Origin: Leptolyngbyaceae cyanobacterium RU_5_1
GTDB lineage: Bacteria > Cyanobacteriota > Cyanobacteriia > Leptolyngbyales > Leptolyngbyaceae
Reading direction: 5' to 3'
Length of the DNA: 64,000 bases
Assembly: GCA_012034055.1 (NCBI GenBank)
Contig: JAAUSG010000001.1
Coordinates: forward strand, 1 to 64,000
This document shows positions 5,418 to 35,700 of the stretch, piece by piece. Position 1 is the first letter of the stretch. Every line of letters starts with the position of its first letter. The position numbers and the translations under genes were made by a program. A model generated the notes under the pieces. That model saw nothing but the letters and a program-made list of their open reading frames with translations. It had not been told where the DNA came from and ran no database searches.

Positions 5418-7247
5418 CTAGTTGCTGGGTATTGCAGCGAACTTACCTAGATTATTTTGACGCCAATGGGCATCTGCTTTGCGATCGGTGCAAATTTCTA
5501 ATACTCGGATGCCGGATGTCGGAAGCGGGTTCAACCGCTGTTGCAACTGGTCCCAATGGGTGATGCGTTCGTGTTCGACTCCGTAGGTGGCGCAGAGTTG
5601 GGCAAAGTCAATGGATTGGGGGGTGGCGAAAAAGGTCTCGAAGGGTGGGTCGAATTGAGCGATCGCCAGCATCTCAAAAATCCCACCGCCATTGTTGTTG
5701 ATTAACACGATGGTGAGATGTCCCACAAACGGCTGGTTGAGCAGAAACCCGTTCGTATCGTGCAAAAGCGCTAGGTCACCGGTCAGCATGACGCTCGGTT
5801 GCTGGTGGTGGGCGATCCCCAATGCTGTGGAAAGGCTGCCATCGATCCCGTTTGCGCCCCGGTTGAAATAGGGTTGAACTCTGGAGTCCCCAGGTGACCA
5901 AAAAAATTCTACGTCTCGCACTGGGGTACTACTGCAGATAAACAGTGGGGTTTCTGGGGGGGAGGCTCTGTGAAAGTAACCAGGCAACTTTGCCTTCAAA
6001 CAGCTCGGTCATTTGGTTGAGCGTTTGATCCAGCGATCGCCGCGTGTGCTCCTCTGCAGCACACCAGAGGCTGAGATAGGAACTGGCAGGTAAGGAATTG
6101 TCCAGCTTCGGTTCAGACGATTGCGCCAATAGTGTCTGAGCCAGCGCTTCCACCGAAATTTGCAGATGGGTCGTTTTGCCGTGCAGCGGATCGAGGTTGC
6201 GTCCACTGGGGTCAATGATCCATTGGCGCGGCTGGGTGGCTGCCAACCAGGTGCGGAGCTGCTTGCTAGTCGGCATTTCACCGATTCGGATCACTGTCTC
6301 TGGTGCTAGTTTTTCAGCCAGGGTGGGGTTGCGCAGGATCAGGTCATAGGTGGAAATCAGGTTGGGCACTAAATCGGCATAGTTGCGCAGGGGGGAAAGT
6401 CCTTCTGCCAGAACTGGATAGCCAAAGGTTTGGGAGAGGTGGGCGATCGCGTGGCAGTAGTGGGCCGCGATCGCGGTTGGGCCGGGCCGGCGATGATGAG
6501 GCCGTGGGTGGAGGTGTGCCAGTCGGGGAGGTGGAGGTGGGGAGGTGGGGAGATGGGGAGATGGGGAGATGGGGAGGTAGAGACGCGTTCGCGTAGCGTG
6601 TCCGCAGGACTCTTAATCGCGTCTCTACGAGGGGTGATGCAATTAAAGAAGGTGTTCGGGTTGAAGGTGAGGGCGAGGGATTGGGATTGGGGTTCGGGTA
6701 TGGGGGCGAGGGGTTCGCGGAAAGGGAGGTTGAGGTGAACGGGGCCGGGGATGGGGGATAAGGTTTGCTCCCAGCTCTGAATCACTGTCTGTCGTAGGTA
6801 GGCCAGCAGGGTGGGATCAAGAGCAGGGAGAGCTAATTCGGTGTGCCAGTTAGGAAAGGAGCCGTAGAGTTTGTGCTGGTCGATCGCCTGTCCAGCATTG
6901 CAGTTCCGCAGTTCTGGGGGGCGATCGGCGGTTAGCACCAACAAGGGCACACGACCTTCACGGGCTTCGATGATGGCTGGGTAAAAATTGGCTCCTGCGG
7001 TTCCAGAGGTACACATCAACACAACTGGGCGCTGTTGCTGACGGGCCATGCCAAGGGCAAAAAAACTGGCAGACCGCTCGTCTAAGACTGGAATGGACTC
7101 GATGTGAGGATGATTGGCAAAGGCGATCGCCAGGGGAGCCGATCGCGATCCTGGACAAATCACGGCTGTCGTCAGTCCCAATCGGTACAGGGTCTCTGCC
7201 AGGATGGAGGTCCAAACCAGATTGGTGTTGGTGAAGTCGATGGGCAT
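5418..7247 (-). CDS. menD: SEPHCHC synthase, frameshifted twice
   Basis: Thiamine-diphosphate enzyme joining isochorismate and 2-oxoglutarate in phylloquinone synthesis. Three consecutive minus-strand frames together make one MenD of about 600 residues. The N-terminal part has [18 protein letters not shown] and [16 protein letters not shown]; the middle restarts as [20 protein letters not shown]; the C-terminal part has [15 protein letters not shown] and the ThDP-binding [16 protein letters not shown] ... [12 protein letters not shown]. The first shift needs one added base near 6462-6464; the second is a G7 run at 5956-5962 that reads correctly as G6. Between the N-terminal and central domains is an inserted low-complexity stretch containing a 52-bp palindromic element. 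A decayed gene is possible, but the offsetting homopolymer errors suggest sequencing artefacts. Confidence 0.88.
6541..6628. repeat. In-gene insertion: GGGGAGAT tandem plus 52-bp palindromic element
   Basis: Tandem GGGGAGAT units (about 6541-6576) are followed by a 52-bp element (6577-6628) with arms GTAGAGACGCG and CGCGTCTCTAC. On the menD coding strand it reads [17 protein letters not shown]. The copy in menE (11718-11769) is base-for-base the same on its coding strand. Confidence 0.85.
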
Positions 7248-7327
7248 GGGGGGTAGGGATTAGGGGGTAGGGGTTAGGGGCTAGGGAGCTAGATTGATTG
7301 CCTCTCACCTCTCACCTATTGCCTTTC

Positions 7328-8776
7328 CTAAACTAGTGCAGCTAAGAGCGCCTGCAGTTTGAGCTGAACTTCGGCTAATTCGCGATCGGGATCCGATCCG
7401 GACACAATTCCGGCTCCGGCGAAGAGGCGGGCACGGTTGCCGTCAATCAGGGCAGAGCGGATGCCGACTGCAAATTCTCCATCACCGGTGTGGTTGACCC
7501 AGCCGATTGGGGCGGCGTAGAGCGATCGCTCAAATGGTTCATAGCGGCGAATGTGCTCACAGGTTAGTTCGCGCGGCATTCCAGCAACAGCGGGAGTTGG
7601 ATGCAGTTCTGCCAGAATATCGAGCAAATGCACCTGCGCCGGAACCGATGCCCAGATTGGGGTGTGTAAGTGCTGAATGTTGGATAGCTGCAGCAGACGC
7701 AGGGGCGATCGCTGGGGCATCAGCCCCAACTGGGAGAGCCGTCGAGTGATGAAATCAATCACAACTTGATGCTCATGAATTTCCTTGGTGCTATTCAGCA
7801 AGGTATTTGCCAGCCGGGCATCCTCACAAGCCGTCTTGCCGCGTGGGGCTGACCCGGCTAACGCATCGGTGACCAGTTGCTGCTTCTGTAGACATACGAG
7901 GCGCTCTGGACTGGCACCGATAAAATGTTGACCCCTGCCATTGCTAATCGAAAAAACGTAGCAGTCTGGGTAGAGACGGCGCAGGTTGTTGAGCGAATAA
8001 ACGCGATCGAATGACAGGGGTGAAACGATGTCTACCGCATGAGCGAGTACGATTTTGTTAAAAATATCAGTTTGAATAGACTCTAATGCGGCTCGAACCG
8101 CTTGCTTAAAGTGTTCGGTCGTCGTAACGTCTTGTTTCTGGAACAAGCCCTGGTGATGTGTGATTGGATTCAGCAATTCGTACTGAACCGAACGAATTTT
8201 TTGCAAAGTATGCCATACTTTACCAGCCGTTTGTTCCAGATCCGTTTTAGCGTCGATCGCCAGATTAGCGACAACAGTACAGCGGTTTTCGTAGTAGGAG
8301 ATCTGCCAGCTTGGCAAGAAAACTGTAGCGGCTGGAAAGCTATCAAATGCCTGACCTGACTGATTGTCTGCGAAAGAGAAGCTACAGAAAAAGTGAGGAC
8401 CAGAGAACGGCAAATGCAGATCTCCAGCCATAATTGTGGTAGCCAGGATGGATTGGATAAAGGCTTTTACTTGATTAAACCGATCGCGCCCTTCAACTTG
8501 GAGATGAATCGCTGAGTTAATCGCCGCGATCGCAATATGCTGACTTCTAAGACCGTCTCCGGTTGCCAAATCCCGTCTTTCAAAATAGAAGTTTAGTTGA
8601 TTGGAATCAGCAATTTCATTCAAAACAACCAATGGATCAACGGAGTCGATTTCCAATGAAATACTAACGATTTGAAAGCTATCTTTTTCACTAGAACCAT
8701 GCTTACAGCTTGAAAGAAATTGATAGAGGTCTTTACGGGTTTGAAATAGTTGATTGCAGTACGGTGTGACTGGCAT
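7328..8776 (-). CDS. menF: Isochorismate synthase
   Basis: A 482-residue chorismate-binding enzyme that makes isochorismate, the first committed step to phylloquinone. The C-terminal 250 residues carry the family signatures: FNKIVLAHAVDI, FIGASPERLV, LAGSAPRGK, STKEIHEHQVVIDFI, AELHPTPAVAGMP and the Mg-site end AGAGIVSGSDPDRE. The N-terminal 200 residues are poorly conserved, as usual in MenF/EntC. The frame is intact. It is the first gene of the minus-strand men unit and lies 80 nt upstream of menD; it diverges from menA across a 293-nt gap. Salicylate-type isochorismate synthases share the motifs, but the neighbours settle the pathway. Confidence 0.93.
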   Translation of the reverse strand: MPVTPYCNQLFQTRKDLYQFLSSCKHGSSEKDSFQIVSISLEIDSVDPLVVLNEIADSNQLNFYFERRDLATGDGLRSQHIAIAAINSAIHLQVEGRDRFNQVKAFIQSILATTIMAGDLHLPFSGPHFFCSFSFADNQSGQAFDSFPAATVFLPSWQISYYENRCTVVANLAIDAKTDLEQTAGKVWHTLQKIRSVQYELLNPITHHQGLFQKQDVTTTEHFKQAVRAALESIQTDIFNKIVLAHAVDIVSPLSFDRVYSLNNLRRLYPDCYVFSISNGRGQHFIGASPERLVCLQKQQLVTDALAGSAPRGKTACEDARLANTLLNSTKEIHEHQVVIDFITRRLSQLGLMPQRSPLRLLQLSNIQHLHTPIWASVPAQVHLLDILAELHPTPAVAGMPRELTCEHIRRYEPFERSLYAAPIGWVNHTGDGEFAVGIRSALIDGNRARLFAGAGIVSGSDPDRELAEVQLKLQALLAALV

Positions 8777-8815
8777 GTAATAGAAGACAACACAACTTTA
8801 TACCCAGTATAGTTC

Positions 8816-8832
8816 TGTGATTGCGCATCACA
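8816..8832 (-). promoter_or_regulatory. CRP-like inverted half-sites upstream of menF
   Basis: TGTGAT and ATCACA are separated by 5 nt, about 40 nt upstream of the menF start. Read toward menF they are followed by TATACT and TATAAA, which could serve as a -10 element. The spacing TGTGA-N7-TCACA is one base longer than the CRP/SyCRP1 consensus, so binding is uncertain. Confidence 0.3.
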
Positions 8833-9069
8833 AGCGCTTTTCAAGTGATAGATACCGCAATCACTGACCAGACATATCTGGACGATGAATCTCAACATGC
8901 ATCATGCAGATTCCCAAGTAATTTTCAGATCGGACAACTGTTTCAAAACATTTCATAATTTGTTTCAAAGTTTGAAGCTTCAGACCTCTACTTAGGAAGA
9001 TAAAACGCTGAATCGTAGAATGATTAGGCAACTTTAAGCCAACTGAAGCTGATTTGGCAACGTTACAGA
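8833..9069. other. menF/menA divergent promoter region
   Basis: The rest of the 293-nt gap between divergent menF and menA contains AT-rich sequence, two stretches of TTTCAAA/TTTCATAA type and no gene. Both men promoters must lie here. Confidence 0.4.
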
Positions 9070-9969
9070 ATGACTACTAGAACGGTCGATCGCTCCAACA
9101 AGAAGTTATGGCTGGCAGCCATTAAGCCACCGATGTATAGCGTCGCTATTATGCCGATTTGGGTCGGCAGTACCGTTGCATTCGCCGAAACGGGCGATTT
9201 TCAAGCGGACATCTTTGCCACCTTTCTCACCTCTGCCATCCTGATTCTGGCGTGGGAGAATCTCAGCAACGATGTGTTCGACTCTGAGACAGGCGTCGAT
9301 GTCAACAAGGCAAACTCGCTCGTGAACCTGACTGGCAACAAACCGCTGATCTTCTGGTTGGGAAACCTGTGTCTGGTGTTGGGGTTGTTGGGAATCGGGG
9401 CGATCGCGTTCTGGCAGCAAGATTTGACGGTGATCGGGCTGATTTTGCTCTGTTGTGGTCTTGGCTATATTTACCAGGGACCGCCCTTTCGCCTCAGCTA
9501 TCAGGGAGCCGGAGAAATCCTGTGCTTTTTCGCCTTCGGTCCGGTCGCCTTTGCCGCCGTCTACTACAGCCAGACCAAAGCCTGGTCATTCACTAATCTT
9601 GCTGCTTCCGTCGTGATTGGCATTGCTACCAGCCTGATTCTGTTCTGCTCCCACTTCAACCAGGTCAACGACGATGCAGCGGTCGGCAAAAAATCCCCCA
9701 TTGTCCGGCTGGGCAGCAAACGTTCGGCTCAACTGCTGCCCTGGATTTGTGGGAGCGTCTATGGTTTGACGGTTGTGTTTGTACTCCTGAAGCTGTTTCC
9801 AGTCTGGACGCTTCTGGTGTTTGCCAGCCTGCCCTACGCCCTCAAGCTCTGTCACCACATCGGCAGCCGCTATCAGCAACCTGAAACGCTGACCTTCTGC
9901 CGGTTCATTGCAGTTGCGTTTCACTTCTGGACTGGGCTGATGTTGGGAGTGGGGTTTGTGTTGGGATGA
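9070..9969 (+). CDS. menA: DHNA phytyltransferase (UbiA family)
   Basis: A 299-residue integral membrane prenyltransferase that attaches the phytyl chain to 1,4-dihydroxy-2-naphthoate. The first aspartate motif is NDVFDSETGVD (about residues 76-86), followed by NLTGNKP; the second is NQVNDDAAVGKKSP near residue 200. Around eight hydrophobic helices are visible. Length and frame are normal. Its stop overlaps the ATG of menC (ATGA at 9966-9969), implying translational coupling in a menA-menC-menE operon. In cyanobacteria the product feeds photosystem I phylloquinone. Confidence 0.94.
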   Translation: MTTRTVDRSNKKLWLAAIKPPMYSVAIMPIWVGSTVAFAETGDFQADIFATFLTSAILILAWENLSNDVFDSETGVDVNKANSLVNLTGNKPLIFWLGNLCLVLGLLGIGAIAFWQQDLTVIGLILLCCGLGYIYQGPPFRLSYQGAGEILCFFAFGPVAFAAVYYSQTKAWSFTNLAASVVIGIATSLILFCSHFNQVNDDAAVGKKSPIVRLGSKRSAQLLPWICGSVYGLTVVFVLLKLFPVWTLLVFASLPYALKLCHHIGSRYQQPETLTFCRFIAVAFHFWTGLMLGVGFVLG

Positions 9970-11023
9970 GGGGGGTAAGGGGGTCAGTTCGGAAATTGGT
10001 GGGACAATTTGTTCAGTTTGAGTTTCGTCCGTATGCTCGTCCGTTTTACAGACCTTTACAGACCAATCACGGTGAGTGGACGGTGCGGGAAGGAATTCTG
10101 ATTCGGCTGATGGATAAGTCAGGTCGGGTGGCGTGGGGTGAGATTGCGCCGATTCCCTGGTTTGGTTCAGAAACGCTGGCGGCAGCGCTGAAATTTTGTG
10201 GTCAGTTGCCAGCAACCCTCACTCGTGAACTGATTTTTCCATTCCCGATCATCTGCCTGCTTGCCAGTTTGGATTTGAGTTGGCGTGGGAGGACGTGATG
10301 GCAAGTGAGAAGTGGGGTAGAGACGCGATTAATCGCGTCTGTACAATTAATCGCGTCTGTACAGAGCAAGTGGGGAATAGGAAGAGGGATCAAATTGGTT
10401 GTTGCGTTTTGTTGCCAACTGGGAAAGCGGCGTTACAAGCTTGGCAGGAGTTTTGGCAGCGGGGCGATCGCACCTTCAAATTAAAAATTGGAGTAGAAGC
10501 ATTTGAGGAAGAGCTGCGGGTTTTTGAAGCGTTGGTTTCTGAGTTGCCGACGATCGCCCGTTTGCGGTTGGATGGGAATGGTGGATTGAGTGTTCAGCAG
10601 GCGATCGCGTGGCTGGAGGCATGTCAGCACATACCCAAGGTTGAATTTTTGGAGCAACCGCTGCCACCGGAGCAATTCGATACAATGCGGCAATTGGCTG
10701 AGCAATACCCGACCGCGATCGCCCTGGATGAGTCGGTTGCGACGCTGGCTCAACTTCAGAAGTGTTACCACAACGGTTGGCGAGGTGTGTTTGTGATCAA
10801 GCCTGCGATCGCGGGGTCTCCGTCCCAATTGCGCCAGTTTTGCCGAAATCATGCCATTGATGCGGTGTTTTCTTCGGCATTTGAGACTGCGATCGGGCGG
10901 CAAGCAGGATTGAAGCTGGCTGCGGAATTGGGAAATTGCGATCGGGCGATCGGCTATGGCACCACTCACTGGTTTGATCAGGGCGAGATGGAAGATTTTG
11001 ACCAGCTATGGCAGACCCTCTGA
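9966..11023 (+). CDS. menC: o-Succinylbenzoate synthase, frameshifted
   Basis: Enolase-superfamily enzyme that dehydrates SHCHC to o-succinylbenzoate. The first frame holds the capping domain (GEIAPIPWFGSETL) and ends at 10298 in a frame-shifted tail. One base missing in the C-run 10244-10246 explains it: the other frame gives PDHLPACQFGFELAWEDV. The barrel then follows with catalytic KLKIG, metal ligands in LRLDGNGG, EFLEQPLP and ALDES, and FVIKPAIAGS. Between cap and barrel is an inserted segment with [19 protein letters not shown], encoded by palindromic repeat copies. The gene overlaps menA by 4 nt and menE by 16 nt. Confidence 0.88.
10317..10364. repeat. Palindromic element, one and a half copies, inside menC
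   Basis: A 28-bp copy with core GACGCGATTAATCGCGTC (10317-10344) ends GTAC and is followed at once by a second half copy (10345-10364). On the menC strand it reads [15 protein letters not shown]. It lies between the cap and barrel domains. Confidence 0.85.
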
Positions 11024-12500
11024 GCTATCTAAAACAACGAGCGAACGATGATTGGCTCCTGGGTTACAACAGTCAAGAATTCTTTGAGCTGGTCGAGCAG
11101 GCACGCCAAACCCTAACTGCCCAGCAACAGACATCCCCCAATCCCTCCCCCATCATCCTGTTAGCAGAGCCTCATCCCTTAAAATTCCTCGCCCACTTCC
11201 TTGCCGCCTGCAGCACCGACTGCCACCTCTTCCTCTGCAATCCCAACTGGGCTGAATTGGAGTGGCAACAAGTGTTTGAACTCGTTCAGCGACCTAGTTT
11301 GGGGAATAGCCAAAGAAAGTAGGCATACAGAACTATGGAGACATGGAGACACTAAGACGCTTAAATCCAAAATCCAAAATCTAAAATCTAAAATCCCCAC
11401 TCCCCTAATCATGATTCCAACCGGCGGCTCCTCCGGCACACTCCGCTTTGCTATCCACACCTGGAAGACATTGATGGCGTCAGTGGCAGGGTTCCAGCAG
11501 TATTTCGGAGTCAATCAGGTGAACTCCTTTTGTGTGTTGCCGTTGTATCACGTCAGTGGACTGATGCAGTGTCTGCGATCGCTCACCTCTGGCGGAAAAC
11601 TCGCGATCGTCCCATTCAAATCCATTGGGGACGCCAATCTCCCCAACATCAATCCAGCAGACTTTTTCCTCTCCCTTGTCCCCACCCAACTTCAACAGCC
11701 TCCTCCCCCTACTCCCGGTAGAGACGCGATTAAGAGTCCTGCGGACACGCTACGCGAACGCGTCTCTACCCCACACCCCACACCCCATTCCCTGGCTTGC
11801 CCAATTCAAAACCATTCTCCTGGGCGGCGCACCAGCCTGGCCAGAACTGTTGAAACAAGCTCGACAACAGGGGATTCGACTAGCTCCCACCTATGGCATG
11901 ACTGAAACGGCATCCCAGGTTGTGACGCTCAAGCCGGATGACTTTCTCAGCGGACAGACGAGCTGCGGTCAGGTGTTGCCCCATGCTCAAGTCATGATTT
12001 GTAATGAGACTGGAGAAAAACTGGGTATCAATCATTTGGGAGTGATTACGATTCGGGCAGAATCATTGGCGTTGGGATATTACCCGGAGCCAGAGTTTCA
12101 GCACGGTTTTCAGACGGATGATTTGGGTTATTTAGATGCGCAAGGATATTTGCATGGGGTTGGACGGCGGAGCGACAAGATCATTACGGGTGGGGAGAAT
12201 GTGTTTCCAGCAGAGGTGGAGGCGGCCATTCGGGAGACGGGGTTGGTGGAGGATGTGTGTGTGGTGGGAATGAGCGATCGCACCTGGGGACAAGCCGTCA
12301 CGGCTGTTTACGTCCCTCGTCGCTCAGAACCAACTGCGCTTGAAACGTTAGAAGCATCATTAGCAAATCGTCTCAGCAAATTTAAGCAGCCAAAGCACTG
12401 GATTGCGATTGACGAACTGCCGCGCAATGCCCAGGGCAAGATTAATCGGCAAGACTTGATGGCGATGGTGCAGTCTCGCCCCACTGATTCAGCCAGGTGA
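11008..12500 (+). CDS. menE: o-Succinylbenzoate-CoA ligase, frameshifted twice
   Basis: Acyl-adenylating enzyme that makes o-succinylbenzoyl-CoA, the MenB substrate. Three frames make one protein of about 490 residues. Frame one covers the N-terminus to QQVFELVQ; frame two has the phosphate-binding loop IPTGGSSGTLRFAIHTW and LPLYHVSGLMQCLRSL; frame three has LLGGAPAWPELLK, APTYGMTETAS, DDLGYLD, GRRSDKIITGGENVFPAEVE and NAQGKINR. The shifts lie near 11287-11293 and 11695-11700 (an extra base, or two missing). Two repeat insertions sit in it: heptamers reading KSKIQNLKSKI and a 52-bp palindrome reading [17 protein letters not shown]. It overlaps menC by 16 nt and convergent menI by 59 nt. Confidence 0.88.
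11366..11400. repeat. AAATCCA/AAATCTA heptamer array inside menE
   Basis: Tandem units of the type AAATCCA/AAATCTA code for KSKIQNLKSKI just before the IPTGGSSG loop. The same heptamer class is found in intergenic regions (for example 20883-20910 and 51740-51768). Confidence 0.85.
11718..11769. repeat. 52-bp palindromic element inside menE
   Basis: The arms GTAGAGACGCG and CGCGTCTCTAC flank a central part reading through AAGAGTCCTGCGGACACGC. It is the exact reverse complement of the plus-strand copy at 6577-6628. As menD is on the minus strand, both coding strands carry the same 52 bases in the same frame. Confidence 0.9.
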
Positions 12501-12885
12501 TGATGGGATGGGGAAGGTCCTGGCGGGTTCTGGTAGCAGTGTCGATACAAACATGCCGGGTGAATGCTTTGCTAAGCGGTTTCTGAGTTGTGTCTGCCAT
12601 AAAAACCTGATAGCTGATTTCAAATTCGCTACGGCTGGTCGGGTTGGGAGTGAGATGAATGATGAGGCGATCGCCACAAACCATCGGCTTAAAAAAATCC
12701 ACACTGGCATGGGCGATCGCAAACGCCGTATCCCAACCCCCAAAAAAGGCTTGCAACTCAATTCCGGACGCCGCCAGTGACGCTTCGTAAGCTTCATGAC
12801 ACATCGCCAACACATTCGCGAAATATACGACTCCCGCCGCATCCGTATCCTGAAACCGCACAGTTCGTTGATAAGCAAAAACCAT
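12442..12885 (-). CDS. menI: DHNA-CoA thioesterase (hotdog fold)
   Basis: A 147-residue hotdog thioesterase of the 4-hydroxybenzoyl-CoA type, beginning FAYQRTVRFQDTDAAGVVYF with the catalytic Asp in QDTDAAG, then FKPMVCGDRLIIHL. In cyanobacteria this family (Synechocystis Slr0204 is the known member) hydrolyses DHNA-CoA to DHNA, the step between MenB and MenA. Its position beside menE supports that job. It is convergent with menE and their 3' ends overlap by 59 nt, so the C-terminal residues TAPSPSSLAD are written antisense to the end of menE. The frame is intact. Confidence 0.9.
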   Translation of the reverse strand: MVFAYQRTVRFQDTDAAGVVYFANVLAMCHEAYEASLAASGIELQAFFGGWDTAFAIAHASVDFFKPMVCGDRLIIHLTPNPTSRSEFEISYQVFMADTTQKPLSKAFTRHVCIDTATRTRQDLPHPIITWLNQWGETAPSPSSLAD

Positions 12886-12939
12886 ATCTACAACCTGATC
12901 GCAGGATCTCCTTTCGTCCCTAGCCCCTAGCCCCCTGGT

Positions 12940-13075
12940 TGACTGACAAATCTTTTTTGTAGGTTGTAGGTTGGGTTGAACACCGTTAAACCCAACGCTA
13001 GCCTTGGCTTGTTGGGTTACGCTATCGCTAACTCAACCTACGCAAGAATCGGAGTTTCGAGAGTTTTGTCAGTCA
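12940..13075. mobile_element. MITE-like element with 11-bp terminal inverted repeats
   Basis: TGACTGACAAA (12940-12950) and TTTGTCAGTCA (13065-13075) are perfect inverted ends of a 136-bp element with no coding frame of its own. The interior holds a GTAGGTTGGGTT ... AACTCAACCTAC repeat of the family seen at 128-217 and 2658-2764. No clear target duplication flanks it. Small size, inverted ends and lack of coding suggest a non-autonomous transposable element. Confidence 0.55.
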
Positions 13076-13090
13076 CTCAGCCCTGGCCCC

Positions 13091-13827
13091 TTAAAAGCTA
13101 ACCTTATAAAGCTGAAACACCTCTCCCGGCAAGTTCTTCACGAGTTTACCGGCAGAGGCTTTGATCAGTGCTTGCCACGCGGCTAGCGGCTCTAGAAAGA
13201 CTTCGCTGCCCAGGTAGGTTTCCAGGATTGCCCAATTTTCGGCCGTTGGGGTGTCTGGATCGACCACATCAAACACGAAAAAACCGCCCGGTTTCAGTAC
13301 CCGTTTGACCTCGGCCAGAACCTCTTTCCAGTAAGCTATTGGATAGTAGCAGCTTACGCCTGTCGCGATCGCACATCAAACTGCTTCGCCTCATAGGGCA
13401 ACTCATGCGCGGCACCCAACTGCACCCCCTTGAACAGTTTCGAGTTGAGCTGCGGTCCACGAGCATTCAAGACATCCCGCGCGGCTACACTGGCTTCCAG
13501 CCCATAGAATAGTGCCTCCCACTCTCGCCAGGGGTAAATCAGAAAACTAACGCCACAGCCAATATCCAGACAGCGTTGATTCTTCTGAGGCTTGACAAGC
13601 TGCCAAAACGGAGAGGTAAGCTTTGCCTGCAGTAGCCCAGAAGCCCGCTCCTGATAGATCGGCATTGTCTTCACTTCATCCGGCAAGTCAAACGCATTTC
13701 CCCGGTATTCATGGTTAAACCGGACAGCAACTGCTGCAATCTGGCTTTCCCAGTCATGGTTTCTCAACACACCAAAACCACTGCCAGCAGCAGTTTTATC
13801 AAAACGATCAGGCCGTTTATTGGGCAT
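13091..13827 (-). CDS. SAM-dependent class I methyltransferase, frameshifted
   Basis: The N-terminal frame contains motif I, CLDIGCGVSFLIYPW, and runs to FDV. The next residues should be AIATG and appear in the other frame when one base is added near 13372, inside the HIP1 context GCGATCGC-ACATC. That frame continues SCYYPIAYWKEVLAEVKRVL, LKPGGFFVFDVVDP and ends at 13091 (QLYKVSF). The intact product would be about 245 residues. The LKPGG(F)F post-motif is typical of small-molecule methyltransferases, but the substrate cannot be told. Nearness to the men locus invites comparison with MenG, yet the MenG/UbiE signatures are not evident. Confidence 0.72.
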
Positions 13828-13985
13828 CCTCAACTAAGTCTTAAAGGTTTTTGCCAAAGCCACCAAATTTTGGATTGTAGATTGTAGATTTGCGATTTTA
13901 GATTGAGTTGTTTACTCCGTGCTTGCAATTCAGTCACTGCAGCCAGTCCGAAATCTAAAATCTGCAATCATCAATCTACAATCCC

Positions 13986-14162
13986 TTACCCCTTCAGAGC
14001 TTTGTTGAAGTTCTGACGATAGGGCTTATTGAAGATCAAAACGGGCCACAATAGGGATAAGTAAAGACGCCCTTGACTGAAATTTGTCCGCCTGAACCCA
14101 GTCCAGAATTTCCAGATGCCAGCTCCGTAAACGACCAGCGCAATTACCCCAGCAATTTCCAT
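13986..14162 (-). CDS. 58-residue conserved-looking membrane protein
   Basis: A short frame starts MEIAGVIALVVYGAGIWKFW and continues with TGFRRTNFSQGRLYLSLLWP and a basic end, NKPYRQNFNKALKG. It has two hydrophobic segments (residues 3-20 and 33-44) separated by a basic turn, suggesting a small two-pass or hairpin membrane protein. AAAAGG lies about 8 nt before the ATG. The codon use and aromatic/basic pattern look like a real gene, and I believe similar small proteins exist in other cyanobacteria. It lies between the methyltransferase and the sugar-nucleotide gene. Function unknown. Confidence 0.62.
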   Translation of the reverse strand: MEIAGVIALVVYGAGIWKFWTGFRRTNFSQGRLYLSLLWPVLIFNKPYRQNFNKALKG

Positions 14163-17056: not shown

Positions 17057-17110
17057 CCCTCCTCTGGTTATTTCGTCCATTGCTGGATTATTCAGTATCC
17101 GGCTTGAAAG

Positions 17111-22112: not shown

Positions 22113-22206
22113 AGGAGATTTCCAGGAAAGAAACTACCAAAAAATCCTGGTAAAGACGAACGGCCGTTCGTTCCTCCAGGGGTAAAATCTTTCTCAGAAA
22201 TCGCCT
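22113..22206. repeat. 94-bp duplicated 3'-flank element, copy 1
   Basis: It runs from AGGAGATTTCCAGGAAAG to TCTCAGAAATCGCCT and carries the 16-bp palindrome ACGAACGGCCGTTCGT. The copy at 23689-23783 differs only by one extra A. Both copies abut the stop codon of a minus-strand gene. Confidence 0.9.
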
Positions 22207-23688: not shown

Positions 23689-23783
23689 AGGAGATTTCCA
23701 GGAAAGAAACTACCAAAAAATCCTGGTAAAAGACGAACGGCCGTTCGTTCCTCCAGGGGTAAAATCTTTCTCAGAAATCGCCT
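23689..23783. repeat. 95-bp duplicated 3'-flank element, copy 2
   Basis: Same as 22113-22206 apart from one extra A in GGTAAAAG. The pair lies in direct orientation 1.6 kb apart and encloses the substrate-binding-protein gene. Confidence 0.9.
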
Positions 23784-24864: not shown

Positions 24865-24915
24865 CGCCTCAAACTTCGATTTCGCTGGGAATCATTCTCA
24901 TAATTAAAATTGCTG

Positions 24916-25155: not shown

Positions 25156-25227
25156 AGAATTAGTCCATCTACAGGGTGTTCACCATAGTTCCCTTAGCTT
25201 CATCGAACAGTACTGGTGTGGCGTGGT

Positions 25228-26598: not shown

Positions 26599-26739
26599 TA
26601 GTTTGATAAGCGCTCTAAATCCTACTGCTCGGAACCAATCTGAGTTTAGAGCAGTCAGCTTTTTTGGATGCTTTAAGTAGACGCTGAAGCAGTTTTCGCA
26701 CTAACCATTTCCAGTACTGGTGTGACTAGCATCAAAGTT

Positions 26740-26972
26740 AGGACTTACGCAGGTAAGTTAAGTTGGTGGAATTAAAATGAACCATCGTAGGACGGGTTGG
26801 CGATCGCGTAACCCATGCTGCCCAAAGGATTGATGCGTTACGGCTCTGCCTAACACGTCCTACGTTTATTTATGTCCATCTACTTCATCAGTAATTGGTA
26901 ATCGGATCTACAACCAATTCCCCACTACCGACTACCCGTCTAAACACAAGATCTTTCATTTGCGTAAGTCCT
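26740..26972. mobile_element. MITE-like element with 12-bp terminal inverted repeats
   Basis: AGGACTTACGCA (26740-26751) and TGCGTAAGTCCT (26961-26972) are perfect inverted ends of a 233-bp element without a credible gene. The interior contains a GTAGGACGGGTTGG ... ACGTCCTACG repeat of the dispersed GTAGG family. The end GGACTTACGCA also starts the hairpin at 20638. No target duplication is evident. Confidence 0.55.
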
Positions 26973-27212
26973 GAAAGTCTTAATGTGCAGTTTACCAGGC
27001 AATACAGAGGTTTTTCCAATGAGTTGATTTGTTTGTGACTTATCCCCCTATAATGTTGCGATGAATTTACAAGTGGCAATGAATGCCTCAGAATGAGTAG
27101 GCAAATATTCTCAGCCGAGCTACACTAGCAGGCGTCATCAGCAACGCCAAGCATTAAGAGGTACACGTTAGCTTGCTTTACTAGCCCTTTAGTTTTAGTG
27201 CCAGGAGCAGTC

Positions 27213-28055
27213 ATGAAGTCTTTGATTCGCTGGAGTGCCACCGTTGGTTTAGTGGGAATCACCCTGCTGGGTTCAATGTGGATTGGCACCACGCAAGTGC
27301 TTGCTCTCCCCCAAGAGCAAATTGTTCAAAAGTTGCGATCGGTACCTGTTTTTACCATTACCGATGGACGCGGTTCTCTGCTAGTGCTTGCGCCTCCTAA
27401 TGGACAAAAAGGTGGTCCGATTGCAGGAATATTCATCAGCCAGAAAGACGCTCAAGCATTTCTTGACAGGGAAAAAACCAGAAATCCGCAACTGAAGGAT
27501 GTTCAAGTATCACTGGTTTCCCTAGCACAGGTTTATGAATTCTATCAATCTAACAAAGGAAAACCGGATCAACTGTCATTTACCATCGTTCCATCCAAGC
27601 AGCAGTCTGATGCCGCAAATGCCCTGTTGAAACAGAACGGGAAACAAGCTCAACCATTCAATGGCACCCCCCTCTTTGTGATGGCAAGCCAAGACGGAGC
27701 TAAGGAGGGATTTTTGGTGGTGCAGCGAGGCAACCAGGCAGCCGTTCCGATGTTTTTTAACAAAGAAGAATTGCAGGCATTCATGGATCAGTTGAAGAAA
27801 CAGCAGTCTGATCAGTTTAAGAATGTGAAAATTCAGGTTTTTAGTCTAGAAGGTCTGATTGCAGAGATGCAGCGGAAACCAGATAAGGATACAGCCGGTA
27901 ATGATGAATTCCTGAGCAAAGTTCAACTGGTTCCTTCCAGGGAGTCATTGGAGTATGTTCGCTCCGTGACAGGTAAGCAGCAAAATCAGGGTCGTCCCCA
28001 GATTGCACCTGCTAATAAGCCAGCAACACCTGTTAAACCAGCTCCTAAACAGTAA
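27213..28055 (+). CDS. Tic22-family periplasmic protein
   Basis: A protein of 280 residues with signal peptide (SLIRWSATVGLVGITLLGSM, cut near VLALP). The Tic22 pattern is a duplicated domain: EQIVQKLRSVPVFTITDGRG, APPNGQKGGPIAGIFISQKD, then a second half with GTPLFVMASQDGAKEGFLVV and FFNKEELQAFMDQLKKQQSD. Cyanobacterial Tic22 chaperones outer-membrane proteins, such as Omp85 substrates, through the periplasm. I start it at ATG 27213, with AGGAG 7 nt upstream; a GTG at 27198 is in frame but less likely. The C-terminal end is Pro/Lys-rich. Confidence 0.88.
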   Translation: MKSLIRWSATVGLVGITLLGSMWIGTTQVLALPQEQIVQKLRSVPVFTITDGRGSLLVLAPPNGQKGGPIAGIFISQKDAQAFLDREKTRNPQLKDVQVSLVSLAQVYEFYQSNKGKPDQLSFTIVPSKQQSDAANALLKQNGKQAQPFNGTPLFVMASQDGAKEGFLVVQRGNQAAVPMFFNKEELQAFMDQLKKQQSDQFKNVKIQVFSLEGLIAEMQRKPDKDTAGNDEFLSKVQLVPSRESLEYVRSVTGKQQNQGRPQIAPANKPATPVKPAPKQ

Positions 28056-28100
28056 CCTGATCAGGACTAAGGCGATTTCTGAGAGAAAACATCCCGTTGG

Positions 28101-28165
28101 GTAGGGGCAGGTTTTGCCAGAATCTCTGCATCAAGCCGATAGCTTTAATGCCAAACCTGCCCTAC
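28101..28165. repeat. Dispersed hairpin, GTAGGGGCAGGTTT arms
   Basis: The arms GTAGGGGCAGGTTTTGCC and AAACCTGCCCTAC pair except for one missing C. It follows tic22 and is the same family as 2585-2649. Confidence 0.7.
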
Positions 28166-28227
28166 AGGCATTTTGTTTGCTAGAAATTACCTGAGGGAAT
28201 TCCGGTTGAGAGGGGCGGTTATTTGTT

Positions 28228-29223
28228 ATGTCTCTCACACCGCATCCAAAATCTGATTCAGAGCGGCTCTTGTCTTCGCATCGAAGGCAAGAGCTTGGTG
28301 TTTCTGGGCTGGAGTTGTGGCAGTGGTGGCAGGAGGCACGTCAGCAGGCGATCGCAGCTGCCATCCCTGCAGCCGAAGTGGACTGGCTGCTGCAGGAACT
28401 GGCAGGACTGGAACGATTGGAGCTGCGACTGGAGTCATTCAAAGCCCGAACTGACATTTCACTCAAGCTGCCATTGGATGACTTGACCCGACTCTGGCAA
28501 CAGCGGATTCAGGAGCGCATACCGGTGCAATACCTGACCGGAACAGCTCCCTGGCGAGAGTTTTCGTTGCAGGTATCGCCTGCTGTTTTGATTCCACGAC
28601 CAGAGACGGAGATAGTGATTGATTTGGCGGTCAAGATGGGGAGTTGGGGAAATAATTCAAAATTCAAAATTCAAAATTCAAAATTCATCCCGCCTCACCC
28701 CTCATCCCTCCACTGGGCCGACTTAGGAACTGGCAGCGGCGCGATCGCGCTTGGGCTGGCTGTTGCATTCCCGGAGGCGACGATTCATGCGGTGGATTGT
28801 AGTGCGGCGGCGTTGGCGATCGCGAAGGCAAACGCTGCAGCATACAATCTGACTGACCGAATCCACTTCTATCAAGGCTCCTGGTTAGAACCGCTCCAGC
28901 ATTTGAAGGGAAAACTGAGCGGTATCGTATCCAATCCACCTTACATTCCCAGTGCAATGGTGCCAGAACTGCAACCGGAAGTTGCCCAGCATGAACCGCA
29001 TCTGGCCCTGGACGGAGGGCTGGATGGCTTGGACTGGATTCGCCAGTTGGTTGCTGAGGCTCCTGACTATCTGCGATCGCAGGGGATCTGGTTAGTTGAA
29101 ATGATGGCGGGACAGGCGAAAACTGTGACTGATATGCTTCGGCAACAAGGCAGCTATCACGATATTCAGATTCATCCTGATTTAGCGGGGATTGAACGAT
29201 TTGCGATCGCGTACAGGAATTAA
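28228..29223 (+). CDS. prmC: Release factor glutamine methyltransferase with repeat insertion
   Basis: A 331-residue enzyme that methylates the GGQ glutamine of RF1/RF2. The N-terminal helical domain is followed by RIQERIPVQYLTGTAPWREF and LIPRPETE. The SAM motif ADLGTGSGAIALGLAVAFPE and catalytic NPPY in IVSNPPYIPSAMVPELQPEV are intact. Between VIDLAV and ADLGTGSG lies an inserted GNNSKFKIQNSKFIPPHP, encoded by AATTCAAA heptamer units (28654-28687). The frame is preserved. The insertion is in the loop just before the SAM pocket, so the enzyme may tolerate it. ATG 28228 has no strong ribosome binding site. Confidence 0.93.
   Translation: MSLTPHPKSDSERLLSSHRRQELGVSGLELWQWWQEARQQAIAAAIPAAEVDWLLQELAGLERLELRLESFKARTDISLKLPLDDLTRLWQQRIQERIPVQYLTGTAPWREFSLQVSPAVLIPRPETEIVIDLAVKMGSWGNNSKFKIQNSKFIPPHPSSLHWADLGTGSGAIALGLAVAFPEATIHAVDCSAAALAIAKANAAAYNLTDRIHFYQGSWLEPLQHLKGKLSGIVSNPPYIPSAMVPELQPEVAQHEPHLALDGGLDGLDWIRQLVAEAPDYLRSQGIWLVEMMAGQAKTVTDMLRQQGSYHDIQIHPDLAGIERFAIAYRN
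28654..28687. repeat. AAAATTC heptamer array inside prmC
   Basis: Four to five AAAATTC units are read in frame as SKFKIQNSKF. Arrays of the same kind lie in the CHAT gene (30561-30595) and mutS2 (47120-47160). Confidence 0.9.
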
Positions 29224-29273
29224 AAATTAAAAATTAAAAGTTAAAAATGGCTGCTTGTAGGGTTTCCCAATTT

Positions 29274-31919
29274 TTAATTTTTAATTTCTAATTTTGCATT
29301 GCCCTCCGCTTCACCAATCAGGGTAAATGCAGCCCAGTCAAGCGGTCGGGGATGGCTCTTCATCGTTTCCAGCATTGCCTGCCGCAACGCTCTGGCTTTG
29401 TCGGGGTGCTGCTGCAAATTCTGGTAGAACGACACCATCAGATGTGACGTTGAAACATCTGATACTGCCCACAGCGACACAACAATACTGGGGACTCCGG
29501 CTGAAATAAAGGCACGGGATAAGCCAATTACTCCATCACCGGTAATTCGTCCCCGGCCCGTATCACAGGCGCTTAACACCACTAACTCTGCATTCAGGCG
29601 CAAACCAAGAATTTCGTCTGAGGTGAGTAAGCCATCTCGTGTAGGCGGAGCAGGGGCCAGCGCGATCGCCCCCGGTACTCCGGTCTCTCCCATGTCCTGT
29701 CCATACTCCAGTAACCCGTGGGTTGCCAGGTGGATCAGTTTGGCTTGCGGCAACTGCTGCACCACGCGGCGCTCTGTTGCTTGATGTCCGACCAGGGCCG
29801 TTGTCTTCAGCAAGCTGGCAATTTGGTTGGCTTCTTTTTCGGCTTGGGGCAGTGGACTCAGGGGTTCAGAGTTCACCTTGGGCATGGTGGGGTTGCCGAC
29901 GATCAGGGTAGGGAGTGGGGAGCGATCTCGCTTCTCACTGCCGCTTGCCGCTTGCCTCTCACCCCTTGATTGTCTTGTTAACTCCAATACCTGAATGGCT
30001 GGAGCGGTGAGTGGGGTGTGTTGCTCTACCAGGTAAGTGCCATTGATATCCTGCAGGGCAGGGAAGGGAACCAGAAACAGGGATTCTTGTGGAATGAACA
30101 CGATCCGGGCATTGGGGTGCTTGGGGAGCAGGTCAGCGATCGGTTCAATCAGCAGTTGGTGCAAGCGATGCAGGGCTGGATTTTTCTTGCGGCGTTGAGA
30201 GGTTAGTGTACCAGATGCTTGAGAGGCTAGTGATGCTGGGGATTGGCTGGTTGCTGCATTGGTTGAGGACGCTTGTGCCACGAACGCGCAGTCTGTGGCG
30301 GGAACGAGACATCCACGACTGACTGCGACCAATTTGGCAAGCGTGAGCTGTTGCTGCCAGAGCGGTTTTAGATCGATGCGGCGAAACGAAACAGTGCCGC
30401 TTGGTGACACAACCCAGATGAACAGCTCCGCTTCTCGTGCCCGCTGCTTGCCACGGAACTTGAAGTCATCATCTGGCACGATCGCGTATTCCACCAGCGT
30501 GGCATTCTGTTGCCGAGCAACCTGTTTGATGTCGGCAATGGTGATGGGAGTGACAGTAGGGAATTTTGAATTTTGAATTTTGAATTTTGAATTCTGCCCC
30601 TGCTGCCTTCTCGCCAATAATTCCACAAACGCCCGCGCTCGTCCCCACTCGGTTGCTTCCAGGGCAGCTTCGGGCTGGTTGGCGGCGACTAACACTTGCT
30701 GTAGCAGGTTGTAGGTGTGCAGTTGGGTATCAAAGATAGACACGCGATAGTTGTCGCTGAGTCCGGGGCGCAGGGTGTCCAGGAGTTGAATGGCTTCTCG
30801 CAGGGTTGCTTCGGCGTCTGCTAGCTTGCCTGCATTAAACAGCGTGTGTCCGAGGTTATTGAGCGCTTTGCCCTGAGCTTCGGGGTCATTGAGCGATCGC
30901 GCCATCAGCAAGCCTTGCTGATGATACTCGATGGCTTTGGGGTAATCCTGCAAATCCTCGTAGGCTAGACCTAAGCTGCTCAACGCCTCACTTTCTCGCT
31001 GCCGATAGTGGATTTGTCGCGCGATCGCCAAGCTTTTCTGATAGTAGTCAATTGCAACATCGCGTTGATTGCACATGTGGTACACCGACCCCAGGTTGAT
31101 CAACGTACTAGCCTGTCCCTCCAAATCTTTGATAGAGCGGCTAATCTCCAAGCTCTGCTCGAAATTGACAATTGCCTCCTTGTCCTTGCCCAGGTTGGCG
31201 TAGATTGCGCCCAAATTCCCCAACGCCCGACCCTCGCCAACGCGATCGCTCATCTGTTCAGCAATCTTCAAGCTCTGTTGATAGGCAATCGTGGCGTTGT
31301 CGTAGTCCCCAACAGCTTCAAAGGCGTTGCCCAGGTTGACCAGAACCTGCCCCAACTCCTGACGATTGCCGATCGCCCGCATCAGTCTTCCGGCTTGTTT
31401 ATGCGACGCGATTGCCTGGCTGTAGTTGCCTGATTCTTTGTATGCAATCCCTAAATTGCTTAAGGCCCGTGCTTCTACACGATCATCCAGCCATTCAGCA
31501 AGGGGTAACAAGGCTTCGAGGATCGCGATCGCGTCTCGGTACTGTTCCAGACCAATATGCGCTGCTCCCAGACTGGCTAATACCAATCCTTCCTGCTGCC
31601 GATCTTCGAGTTGTTGATACAGCCTCCGTGCCTGCTGCCAGGACTTGATTGCCGCTTCAAGCTGTCCTGCCTGGTAGTGTTGATTGCCCTGTTGCAGGAG
31701 CTGGTTGGCTGTTGCTGCAGGATTAGGGAGAGTAGAGGGGGGTAGAGGAGATGGGGAAGGTGAGGGAGATGGGGGAGTAGAGACGCGATTAATCGCGTCT
31801 CTACGAGAGGCATAGGGGGTGGAGGCAGCAGGAGATGGTGGGATGAGTAGCAGCGTAGCGATCGCCATCCACCAAACCCACTTCCAACCCATCTCCCCCA
31901 TCTCCCCCATCCTCCCCAC
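29274..31919 (-). CDS. TPR-CHAT protein (caspase-like peptidase domain)
   Basis: An 881-residue exported protein. The N-terminus has a hydrophobic signal segment (WWMAIATLLLIPPSPAAS) and a Pro/Ser-rich stretch with [10 protein letters not shown] encoded by a palindromic repeat. About eight TPRs follow (for example GKALNNLGHTLFNAGKLADA). The C-terminal 330 residues form a CHAT domain with the catalytic dyad in KLIHLATHGLLEYG (His) and LVVLSACDTGRGRITGDG (Cys), then GVPSIVVSLWAVSD. CHAT proteases include separase-like and gasdermin-linked enzymes; the cyanobacterial TPR forms are mostly uncharacterised. A heptamer repeat reading NSKFKIQNSKF lies between TPR and CHAT. It is upstream of Uma2 on the same strand. 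Confidence 0.9.
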   Translation of the reverse strand: MGRMGEMGEMGWKWVWWMAIATLLLIPPSPAASTPYASRRDAINRVSTPPSPSPSPSPLPPSTLPNPAATANQLLQQGNQHYQAGQLEAAIKSWQQARRLYQQLEDRQQEGLVLASLGAAHIGLEQYRDAIAILEALLPLAEWLDDRVEARALSNLGIAYKESGNYSQAIASHKQAGRLMRAIGNRQELGQVLVNLGNAFEAVGDYDNATIAYQQSLKIAEQMSDRVGEGRALGNLGAIYANLGKDKEAIVNFEQSLEISRSIKDLEGQASTLINLGSVYHMCNQRDVAIDYYQKSLAIARQIHYRQRESEALSSLGLAYEDLQDYPKAIEYHQQGLLMARSLNDPEAQGKALNNLGHTLFNAGKLADAEATLREAIQLLDTLRPGLSDNYRVSIFDTQLHTYNLLQQVLVAANQPEAALEATEWGRARAFVELLARRQQGQNSKFKIQNSKFPTVTPITIADIKQVARQQNATLVEYAIVPDDDFKFRGKQRAREAELFIWVVSPSGTVSFRRIDLKPLWQQQLTLAKLVAVSRGCLVPATDCAFVAQASSTNAATSQSPASLASQASGTLTSQRRKKNPALHRLHQLLIEPIADLLPKHPNARIVFIPQESLFLVPFPALQDINGTYLVEQHTPLTAPAIQVLELTRQSRGERQAASGSEKRDRSPLPTLIVGNPTMPKVNSEPLSPLPQAEKEANQIASLLKTTALVGHQATERRVVQQLPQAKLIHLATHGLLEYGQDMGETGVPGAIALAPAPPTRDGLLTSDEILGLRLNAELVVLSACDTGRGRITGDGVIGLSRAFISAGVPSIVVSLWAVSDVSTSHLMVSFYQNLQQHPDKARALRQAMLETMKSHPRPLDWAAFTLIGEAEGNAKLEIKN
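30561..30595. repeat. GAATTTT heptamer array inside the CHAT gene
   Basis: About four GAATTTT/AAAATTC units read as SKFKIQNSKF on the gene strand, in the linker between the TPR and CHAT domains. Confidence 0.9.
31777..31804. repeat. 28-bp palindromic element inside the CHAT gene
   Basis: GTAGAGACGCGATT and its mirror AATCGCGTCTCTAC form a perfect 28-bp palindrome. It reads [10 protein letters not shown] in the linker behind the signal peptide and is flanked by GGGGGAGAT-type repeats. Confidence 0.9.
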
Positions 31920-31943
31920 TCTCTACCCTCCACTTTCTACCCT

Positions 31944-32681
31944 CTACTCCCCACTCCTCATCCCCTCAACTTCTTCCACCGATAGCCCCAGCGCTTCCGC
32001 AACCTGTTCCGCACTTAACCCCATACTCAGCAACCGAGGAGCTGCATCCCGTCGTGCTTGCTCTGCTTGCTGTCGTGCTCGTTCCGTTTCTGCATACGTT
32101 AACAACGGTTTGCCTGTTTGCGGATTGTAGAACCTCAGATCCCCATCAATGAGCCGCAACTCTAAACCCAACACCTCGCTGTAGAACGAAACAGTGCCAT
32201 CAGGTTGGTAGTTGGACAAGATAGGCTGATAAACACCATCAATCAGGCGAGAACCCTTCAGGGGTGGCTGTAAGTAGTCTCCCGTTGGGTCATACTGAAA
32301 ATACTCTAAAACTCCCAAATCGCGATATTTTCGGGGTTTCTCTGTCTCATCTTTCTCCTGGGTTGTCTTTGATGTCACTTCCAAAACAAAGCTGGGGACT
32401 TTGCCACCCTCTTCCCAGACCTTGTAGCTGCGGCGCTTCTTTTTCTCAACCCCAAACACGACAAACACATCAGGCGAGACAACGGCATCTGGAACACCCT
32501 GTTTGTAGTAGAGGAACAGATTGCCAGACACATACACATCGGGTCGGTGTTGGAAGTAAATGTTGAGCGCCTCAACACCATAAATCAAGTAATCGCGCGT
32601 CGGATCGCTTTCAGTCATGGGTTGCCCGTCGCCATCGGGGTAGATAATCTCAAAATCAAGCGGGGGGGTTGAGAGGTTCAT
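31944..32681 (-). CDS. Uma2-family (DUF820) putative endonuclease
   Basis: A 245-residue protein of the PD-(D/E)XK-like Uma2 family that is expanded in cyanobacteria. Family residues are DVFVVFGVEKKKRRSYKVWE (D as metal ligand) and FVLEVTSKTTQEKDETEKPR (E-V-x-S-K as the E-x-K core). The C-terminus is a charged helix (ETERARQQAEQARRDAAPRL) and a motif GLSAEQVAEALGLSVEEVEG. I start at ATG 32681 (MNLSTPPLDFE). The biological role of the family is unknown. It shares no length or sequence blocks with the remnant at 51.3-51.7 kb except the general fold. Confidence 0.82.
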   Translation of the reverse strand: MNLSTPPLDFEIIYPDGDGQPMTESDPTRDYLIYGVEALNIYFQHRPDVYVSGNLFLYYKQGVPDAVVSPDVFVVFGVEKKKRRSYKVWEEGGKVPSFVLEVTSKTTQEKDETEKPRKYRDLGVLEYFQYDPTGDYLQPPLKGSRLIDGVYQPILSNYQPDGTVSFYSEVLGLELRLIDGDLRFYNPQTGKPLLTYAETERARQQAEQARRDAAPRLLSMGLSAEQVAEALGLSVEEVEGMRSGE

Positions 32682-32766
32682 GCTGGCATCTCTCGATTCA
32701 ATTGAGGCTTGGCTCAACGATAGCATTTCATGCTAACGATTTTGGATTATAGATCGTACCTGTGTA

Positions 32767-35700
32767 CTAGTACTGTATTGGCGCAATCCGTTCGGGTGCA
32801 GAAATGCTCTTTTGCATCAGCTCCTTGTTTTGATTTGGGCTGGGAGGCTCATCTAGAATTTTGAGAATTTGTTCATCGTCTTGAGTGGTCGGGGTGCAGG
32901 GATTATGGGTTGGTGTGCTGGAAGCGACTCGATTTGAGCGATCGCCCTCGTCAGACAATTGAGGTTTAACAGCGATCGTGGTTGAGCGATCGCAGGCAGA
33001 CTCTAAATTCTGGTTTTGGAACTGCCGCTGAATCGTTTGTCCATCTGCTAGTGGATTGCCAGGATTCGTGCTACCAGAACTAGATCCAGGATTTGGGTCG
33101 GGATTGGGATTCGGGTTTGGGTTGGGGTTGGGATTGATGATGGGTTGGAAGGCGATTCCCTCAAAGGACCCTCCAACACTTGCATTGGTTACGCTCGCTT
33201 TGGTTGCGATCGCTCCGGCTGTTCCACTCACATCCGCTGGAAACTGCTCAGAGCCAAATGTCAGCGCTGAGAAAGTCCGATAGCGTAGAGCCGGTCCGGT
33301 GTAAGCAGATCCTGCCGTATCCTGAGTCAGCAACACATTATAGTTTGGTGTAATTTGAAACGTCGGCAACGGAGTTGGTACACCACCCACCACAAATTGC
33401 GTGTCACCGGTGCCGGTGATCGTCACAAACTGACTGGCAAGACTGTCACCGGATTGAGTCGTGTCAACTGAACGTCCTCCGTGTTGAATCCTTACCCTTG
33501 GTAGTCGATCGCTTCGTCGAGCAAGAATGCTAATTGGAATATCTTGAGATCGAACATCGACTACCACCGTTCGTTCACCTGTGGCACTGACTGACACAAT
33601 CGGTGCAGTAAAGCTGGGAGGCTGATTACCCGCTGGAATGATTTTACCATTCGCATCCAGAACCCCCTGCAATTTCAGAAATTGAATCAGATCTTCATTG
33701 CCAGGGGTGTCAATATTCACTCGTCTGATTACTAACGTGAGCAGCGGGTTGGGAGACAGCACCCCGGTTGCCTGAAATAGCCCAGGCGTGGTCACACTAA
33801 TCTCTGTGACTGAGGCTTGTCCAGTCGCAACAGCATCGATCGTTCTGACAACAATATCTCCAGCACTTGAAGTTAACCGCACCGAGTTGAGTGCCCGCAG
33901 GTTGCCGACTCGAATAGTGCCACCACTGGTCAAGTCCAGTCCTGTGACGTTGCCCAAGCTATCTGTAGAAAATCGAGCCGTCACATCCCCAGCCGTAATG
34001 TCACCATTGGCAGACATAACAACGCTTCCACCCGGTGGCGGAACTGGATTGCCTGGGAAAAAGTCTCCAAATCTACCCGCAATAATGGATCCTGAAACCG
34101 TGATGGAACCGCCGCTGCTGATATTGATATTTCCGCCTGGTGTAAACTCTGATGTATCCGGAGTTGCTGTGGTAATGCTTTGAGTAGTCACATTCCCGGC
34201 TGCTGACAAGATGACGGTTAAGGGTGCTCCTACTGTGGTGATGTTGCCCTGCACATCAATGCGCCCTGGTGTTGTTGCTCCAGTGGGATTCGTGAATTCT
34301 CCAGAGGGTACGGTGATTGGCACATTATTGGGGTTATCTAGGGCGGTTAGACCGGCCCGCAAAATCAGGGTGTGTCCTCCCCGGAGAAGGGCTTGATCGG
34401 CTGGGTTCGCATCGATCGCGCCCACGTCGGGCGCATTAATCGTAATTCCACCAGTAAAGGTGATACTGCCGATCGCCTCCACCTTCAACGAAGCACCCAC
34501 ATAGTCACCGGCAAAAAAGACATCCCCATCGGAGCTGATCACCGGATCATACAGACTGAAAAAAACTGCCGGACTGCCATTCAACGTGCGAATCAGGAAA
34601 TTCTCACGACTGCCAAAATGAGCATCTCCAGAAATAACCCCATCACTCATTAGAGAAAGACTGCCACCTGCTTGAAACGGTTTGCCCGTTTGCAGGTGAT
34701 TCAGCGCCAGGATATCAATACCTTGATTTCCCTGAATCGTCAAATCTCCTCCCGCCTGAACCAGAACCGGATTTTCAACGCTATCCCTCACCTGGACGGT
34801 GTTCTGTGCCAGCAGATTCAAATCTCCGGTGGTGTGCAATTGACTTTCCACCAACGTCAGATTGTTGCTAGCTGAAAGAGTTGCCGTTTGAGCCGTGACC
34901 AATTTTGCCACTACATCCCCATTTTCTATCTGCAATCCTGATCCAATTAGAGAGACACTGCCATTGCTATTGACGGTGACGCCAATTGCACTTGCCAAAT
35001 TGCCACCTGTTAGGAGTTTGGGGAGGGAGAGGGGCGTGATGGGTGAGGCGTTAAGAGTGGCTTTGTCAGCAATCGGTAAGTCCAGGCTGAGCAAGCTGCC
35101 TTGTTGAGTGACGCGAACTAGCTTGTCGCCCGGTATGGCTGCAACAGTAATGGTGCCTCCGTCTGCCGTGAGTGTTCCGGTGTTGATTACGGTGCCACCG
35201 AGTAGAGTAAGGCTTTGTCCCTGCCCGACTGTCAGGTTGCCTGCGTTAATAATGGTTCCCGGTTGCAGTGCCGTAAACGCAAAGCTGTTTGGCGTACCGA
35301 CCAGATTGGCGTAATCGTTTGTGCCAACAGCATTAAACCATCCCCCATTCCCCCTAGAGACGCGATTAATCGCGTCTCTACATCACCGAACCCAATCCCA
35401 TTCGCCGTCGTTGCCGTAAACGATCCGGGCACATTCAAACTGGCATTGGCACCGAAAATAATTCCGGCCGGATTCATCAGGTATAGATTGGCGTTGCTAC
35501 CTGTGACTTGAATCAGGCCATTGATCAGCGACGCTTCGCCACCCGTGACGCGACCCAAGATGTTTTGAATTGAGGGACTGGAGAGAAAGTTGGCGATTTG
35601 TCCAGTATCCAAACCAAACGTCTGGAAACTGTGGAACAGATTACTGCCTGCTTGGGTACCACCCGTGATATTGGTGGTGTTGCCACCCTGATTGAGGAGG

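Follow-up and report, generated by a model that had tools for sequence, protein, structure and literature searches.

A double-foot GTAG palindrome, probably a RAYT-associated REP, dispersed within and between genes of Leptolyngbyaceae cyanobacterium RU_5_1

In cyanobacteria, RAYT genes of TnpA_REP subclass 2.4 can harbour double-foot REPs, inserted in frame between the HuH and Tyr motifs (PMC6006769). GTAG-tagged REPs also occur within ORFs, with uvrA among the hosts, and the GTAG-12, GTAG-15 and GTAG-16 families are cyanobacterial (PMC3733652). The latter paper draws the likeness of REPs to the palindromic elements of Rickettsia, of which RPE-4 and RPE-6 are CGTC-tagged, and states that CGTC repeats have no known dedicated transposase.

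The palindrome described here resembles the REPs of subclass 2.4 (PMC6006769) in its GT[AG]G 5′ end and the complement of this at the 3′ end, its long hairpin, its cyanobacterial host and its RAYT-internal site. GTAG-12, -15 and -16 (PMC3733652) are alike in the GTAG tag, the short palindrome, the association with RAYTs and the copies within ORFs. The Rickettsia elements share with it the palindromic, in-frame insertion into unrelated genes; however, the CGTC tag of RPE-4 and RPE-6 is absent here, where the element has GTAG ends, measures 28 or 52 bp, is linked to a RAYT and is read in two frames. The analogy with Rickettsia, which an earlier note on this DNA had proposed, is fair and is also found in PMC3733652. 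That note knew of no description of such an element, a statement that has to be withdrawn, given that intragenic GTAG REPs (PMC3733652) and in-frame double-foot REPs inside cyanobacterial RAYT genes (PMC6006769) have been published. What is new is the REP itself, the high rate at which it occurs within genes of one genome, and its link to C-rich linkers. In the text consulted of PMC6006769 we found no description of this exact core, of many copies in housekeeping genes of one genome or of C-rich flanks, and the matches of a literature search with the palindrome sequence bore titles unrelated to cyanobacteria.

The window, i.e. the whole stretch of DNA that was analysed, comprises 64,000 nt of the draft genome of Leptolyngbyaceae cyanobacterium RU_5_1 (5.6 Mb, 382 contigs, 88% complete). 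The 18-mer core GACGCGATTAATCGCGTC occurs exactly at window positions 5360, 10322, 31782 and 35359 (0.02 occurrences expected by chance), and two 52-bp forms are present at 6577-6628 and 11718-11769, confirming that the palindrome and its longer form are real. The full 28-base sequence is GTAGAGACGCGATTAATCGCGTCTCTAC. It is predicted to fold into a stable hairpin in the 20-40 nt range, with a 12-bp stem and a z-score of -6.98. Ends follow the pattern GT[AG]G at the 5′ side and C[TC]AC at the 3′ side, most copies reading GTAG...CTAC and some showing end variants. One of the three reading frames of the element contains stops and the other two are open, reading RDAINRVST and VETRLIASL, as had been noted earlier. 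The copies are many and dispersed, as in a REP: the whole draft genome contains 33 exact 18-mers and nine with one mismatch, and 54 copies were catalogued when arm-matched and 52-bp forms were included with the 18-mers, a count obtained by pattern searches of a draft genome, from which diverged copies can escape. The arm-matched family is present in 31 of 42 family genomes, with cores that differ yet remain self-complementary. No target-site duplication beyond chance was detected at the element, either among 53 copies here or among 42 in relatives.

The 52-bp form contains an inner two-hairpin repeat, whose 23-mer core lies at 6590-6612 (+ strand) in the menD copy; the repeat is also present at 11734-11756 (- strand) in the menE copy. 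The core has 27 matches genome-wide (at most three mismatches), some of them with compensatory changes. The small dispersed repeats (SDR) of Nostoc, reportedly the subject of Elhai et al. in 2008, are dispersed repeats of 21-27 nt with a compensatory two-hairpin fold. The inner repeat resembles the SDR in its length of about 25 nt, its two small hairpins and its compensatory variants. The 52-bp form is best regarded as the REP into which a second, SDR-like repeat is nested. The GTAGAGACGTTACATGTAACGTCTCTAC palindromes of this genome were set apart as a separate family, since they have other, shared flanks. Two further repeats were seen in the window: copies related to another double-foot REP, with core GAACGGCCGTTC, at 22150-22175, 23727-23752 and 59431-59456, this REP being also found inside RAYT genes of relatives; and a dispersed repeat of about 75 bp, in both orientations and up to 95% alike, at 2876-2949, 35913-35947, 38470-38544 and 59475-59548.

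The identity of the element is best approached through the RAYT genes. In a relative (G027), an intact RAYT contains the exact 28-mer in frame, between its HuH motif and its Tyr region, and a broken RAYT of the present genome (locus L161, contig C205) contains it at the same HuH/Tyr position, so that the same REP is found inside RAYT genes in both. The intact protein carries the subclass 2.4 motifs NHIH, WQ and YIQTNP, the last being one residue off YIxNNP, and in a motif comparison the majority row of 14 RAYTs fits NH[IFV]H, WQ and YIxNNP. An internal double-foot palindrome was found in 10 of 33 distinct RAYTs, inserted in phase 0 (6) or phase 1 (4) and never in the stop phase, in agreement with what has been published for subclass 2.4 (PMC6006769). 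Because the exact element sits inside RAYT genes, the RAYT system would explain it. We therefore consider the palindrome to be, with a probability of roughly 85%, a double-foot GTAG REP, the non-autonomous miniature partner of a RAYT of TnpA_REP subclass 2.4, which would presumably mobilise it. Copy number did not simply follow the presence of a RAYT: at the thresholds used, no RAYT was found in G015, G017 and G020, despite many element copies. A second RAYT of the present genome (L256, contig C109) is cut by the contig end and flanked by other palindromes. Around this gene and a RAYT of G034 (L242), palindromes of the TTACATGTAA type, of which the present genome has seven, are flanking and not internal.

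Within the window, Pfam searches and the orthologs of about 20 relatives bore out the gene identities given in the earlier note, i.e. menD (a TPP enzyme), menC, menE, a CHAT gene and a TPS-domain haemagglutinin gene. That note placed the element inside all five, with four of the five using the RDAIN frame. In-frame insertion holds for three. In menD the 52-bp form (6577-6628, - strand) adjoins CCCCATCT heptamers and is locally in the RDAIN frame; in menC a 28-bp copy (10317-10344, + strand), behind which a partial second copy extends to about 10365, is in frame and again read as RDAIN; and in the CHAT/TPR gene a 28-bp copy (31777-31804, - strand) lies in an N-terminal Ser/Pro linker, in the same frame. 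The RDAIN count is clean for these three only, because the frames of menE and the haemagglutinin gene change at the element. In menE the reading is RDAIN upstream and VETRL downstream of the 52-bp form (11718-11769, + strand), whereas in the filamentous-haemagglutinin gene the VETRL frame leads into the copy (35354-35381, - strand, 1 mismatch) and RDAIN follows, with a net length change of 14 nt relative to the intact paralog at 38950-39400. Reading every one of the five window insertions as an in-frame peptide was therefore rejected. A sixth copy (5355-5382, 2 mismatches), additional to the five of the earlier note, is non-coding and lies directly upstream of the menB start, outside the menB frame.

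Frame breaks also occur outside the element. Compared with single-ORF orthologs from about 20 relatives, menD is broken near 6465 and 5955, menC is broken near 10240, and menE changes frame twice, at 11290-11390 and at 11680-11790, the element lying within the second interval. Heptamer arrays, e.g. (AATCCAA)n, were observed at 11358-11399, 28648-28703, 30547-30610 and 47114-47177, and one of them sits inside menE, coinciding with a frame break. The genes menB, menF and menA are intact. The breaks in menC, menD and menE (5433-12500) reflect either decay of the phylloquinone pathway or assembly indels. If those of menD, menC, menE and the haemagglutinin gene were all assembly errors, the five window insertions would be in frame in the living cell. 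The draft state of the genome, with its 382 contigs and 88% completeness, the run of seven C at one of the menD breaks and the failure to find a second copy of menC, menD or menE in the draft genome all speak for such errors. However, two of the breaks fall at the element itself, genes elsewhere in the genome (HyuB, L146, and DUF1822, L164) likewise change frame at the element, and MutS, UvrA and other long genes are intact in the same assembly. We regard assembly errors throughout as a doubtful though not negligible explanation, and one that competes with the frame correction only and not with the REP reading.

Genome-wide, 18 of the 54 copies lie in frame within genes, as judged from ORFs and Pfam domains. 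Their hosts are TrpD, a TPS-CHAT protein, two histidine kinases, ChlH, a DALR protein, a 1102-aa ORF, a PMT-like transferase, a methyltransferase, a Gfo/Idh protein, MutS, UvrA, DUF1688, a CAP protein and LarC, together with menD, menC and CHAT of the window. The proposal that the element adds peptide to proteins in frame is thus upheld outside the window as well, with TrpD, UvrA, MutS, ChlH, the methyltransferase and DUF1688 among the examples. Pfam domains flank the element on both sides in these hosts, except in CAP, CHAT, DALR and the 1102-aa ORF, where domain evidence is one-sided and the in-frame call therefore rests partly on the open frame. The in-frame element is often located in a flexible linker of a conserved protein, to which it adds about ten amino acids. 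In four other genes (menE, haemagglutinin, HyuB and DUF1822) the frame changes at the element, and several copies are found where genes end or ahead of start codons. Among the 42 copies in relatives that share the core, a single one is located in a long gene, namely LeuS of G020, compared with 18 of 54 here (Fisher P = 8e-5, a value to be taken as a guide, since copies within one genome are not fully independent). This genome has unusually many in-gene insertions, while its relatives keep nearly all copies between genes.

Insertion-free orthologs, with which the earlier note had called for a comparison, were found for three genes: the peptide is absent from UvrA of seven relatives, from the methyltransferase of three, and from LeuS of six when compared with G020. 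In the case of LeuS, close relatives lack 42 bp comprising the element and an apparent decayed neighbour. Other sites are less simple. The TrpD linkers of five relatives are of near-equal length and C-rich (LPTPHSPLPTP), and the ChlH linkers vary in length and show no clear insertion. In HyuA (L178:3074-3101) the REP is recognisable, with 26 of 28 bases matching, but the orthologs of three relatives are equally long there, for which reason this gene was left out of the in-frame tally; HyuA of one relative (G040) reads VEIQLIASL at the element site. With a net length change of about zero in TrpD, ChlH and HyuA, simple insertion fails to describe every case. An ortholog with the peptide at an identical position, which in distant species would have refuted the earlier note by its own account, was encountered once and weakly, as a decayed copy in the same linker of DUF1688 of G015 (L343), and most of the orthologs checked lack it.

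The earlier note would also have taken a frame distribution expected by chance as a refutation. The 18 in-frame copies comprise 13 read as RDAIN and 5 as VETRL, which is not significantly unequal (P values computed on the near-identical splits 13:6 and 12:5 were 0.17 and 0.14), and a strong frame preference was therefore dropped. A chance-like ratio does not refute in-frame insertion itself. It does bear on whether the palindrome could be a distinct protein-coding element like the Rickettsia RPEs, retained because its hosts benefit from the RDAINRVST peptide. In-frame copies in many proteins, 13 of the 18 in a single frame, would fit such an element, but both open frames are used, most orthologous sites lack the peptide, most copies are not in frame inside genes (in relatives, 41 of 42 are outside long genes), and the GTAG ends and the RAYT linkage place it among the REPs. 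We consider a useful peptide very improbable, and the peptides are presumably tolerated. A MITE moved by a DDE transposase, suggested by the short, perfectly palindromic and dispersed copies and by the existence of a longer size variant, is more improbable still, as the exact element is carried by a RAYT and the lack of target-site duplication beyond chance in both copy sets speaks against a duplicating MITE.

For the RAYT-associated REP, the flanking sequences give a hint as to where it lands. At least 50% C on one strand (15 bases on each side) was found in the flanks of 40% of the copies here, compared with 1.7% of random positions and 2.4% in relatives. Self-similarity of the flanks at period 7 is raised (0.308 vs 0.253), as it is at other periods. 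At the UvrA, TrpD and DUF1688 sites, relatives free of the element have C-rich or heptamer-array linkers, which suggests that the C-rich tracts may have preceded the element. The linkers of relatives at the Gfo/Idh, ChlH and LeuS sites show weaker or no C enrichment, those of ChlH and Gfo/Idh being mostly not C-rich. In addition to the decayed DUF1688 copy of G015, other palindrome-like sequences occur in the same linker of ChlH in G014 and G025 (L304 and L306), the G014 palindrome being single-copy among its matches in that genome. Linkers of conserved enzymes could tentatively be regarded as landing pads shared within the family, colonised by heptamer arrays first and then by REPs of different RAYT families, which insert into the arrays; this is plausible on the basis of a few genes, and we hold it to be somewhat less probable than its negation.

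The mechanism that we propose is as follows. The REP hairpin, whose two feet are GTAG and CTAC, would presumably move in single-stranded form by the action of its RAYT, an IS200/IS605-like Y1 transposase, and leave no target-site duplication. Its landing sites would often have been C-rich, heptamer-like tracts, some of which belong to flexible linkers in conserved proteins. With two open frames out of three, it would leave many host genes readable with about ten extra residues, whereas other landings would break the gene.

The RAYT that carries the exact element provides a testable transposase-substrate pair, and the tolerance of conserved enzymes to foreign peptide can be read from natural experiments, namely the in-frame REPs in MutS, UvrA, TrpD and ChlH homologs. 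If C-rich heptamer arrays attract REPs, this would explain why a third of the copies are in frame inside genes here, while nearly all of those in relatives lie between genes. Furthermore, if shared landing pads exist, the same linker would carry different repeat-coded peptides in different species, and mobile non-coding DNA would regularly supply proteins with linker sequence.
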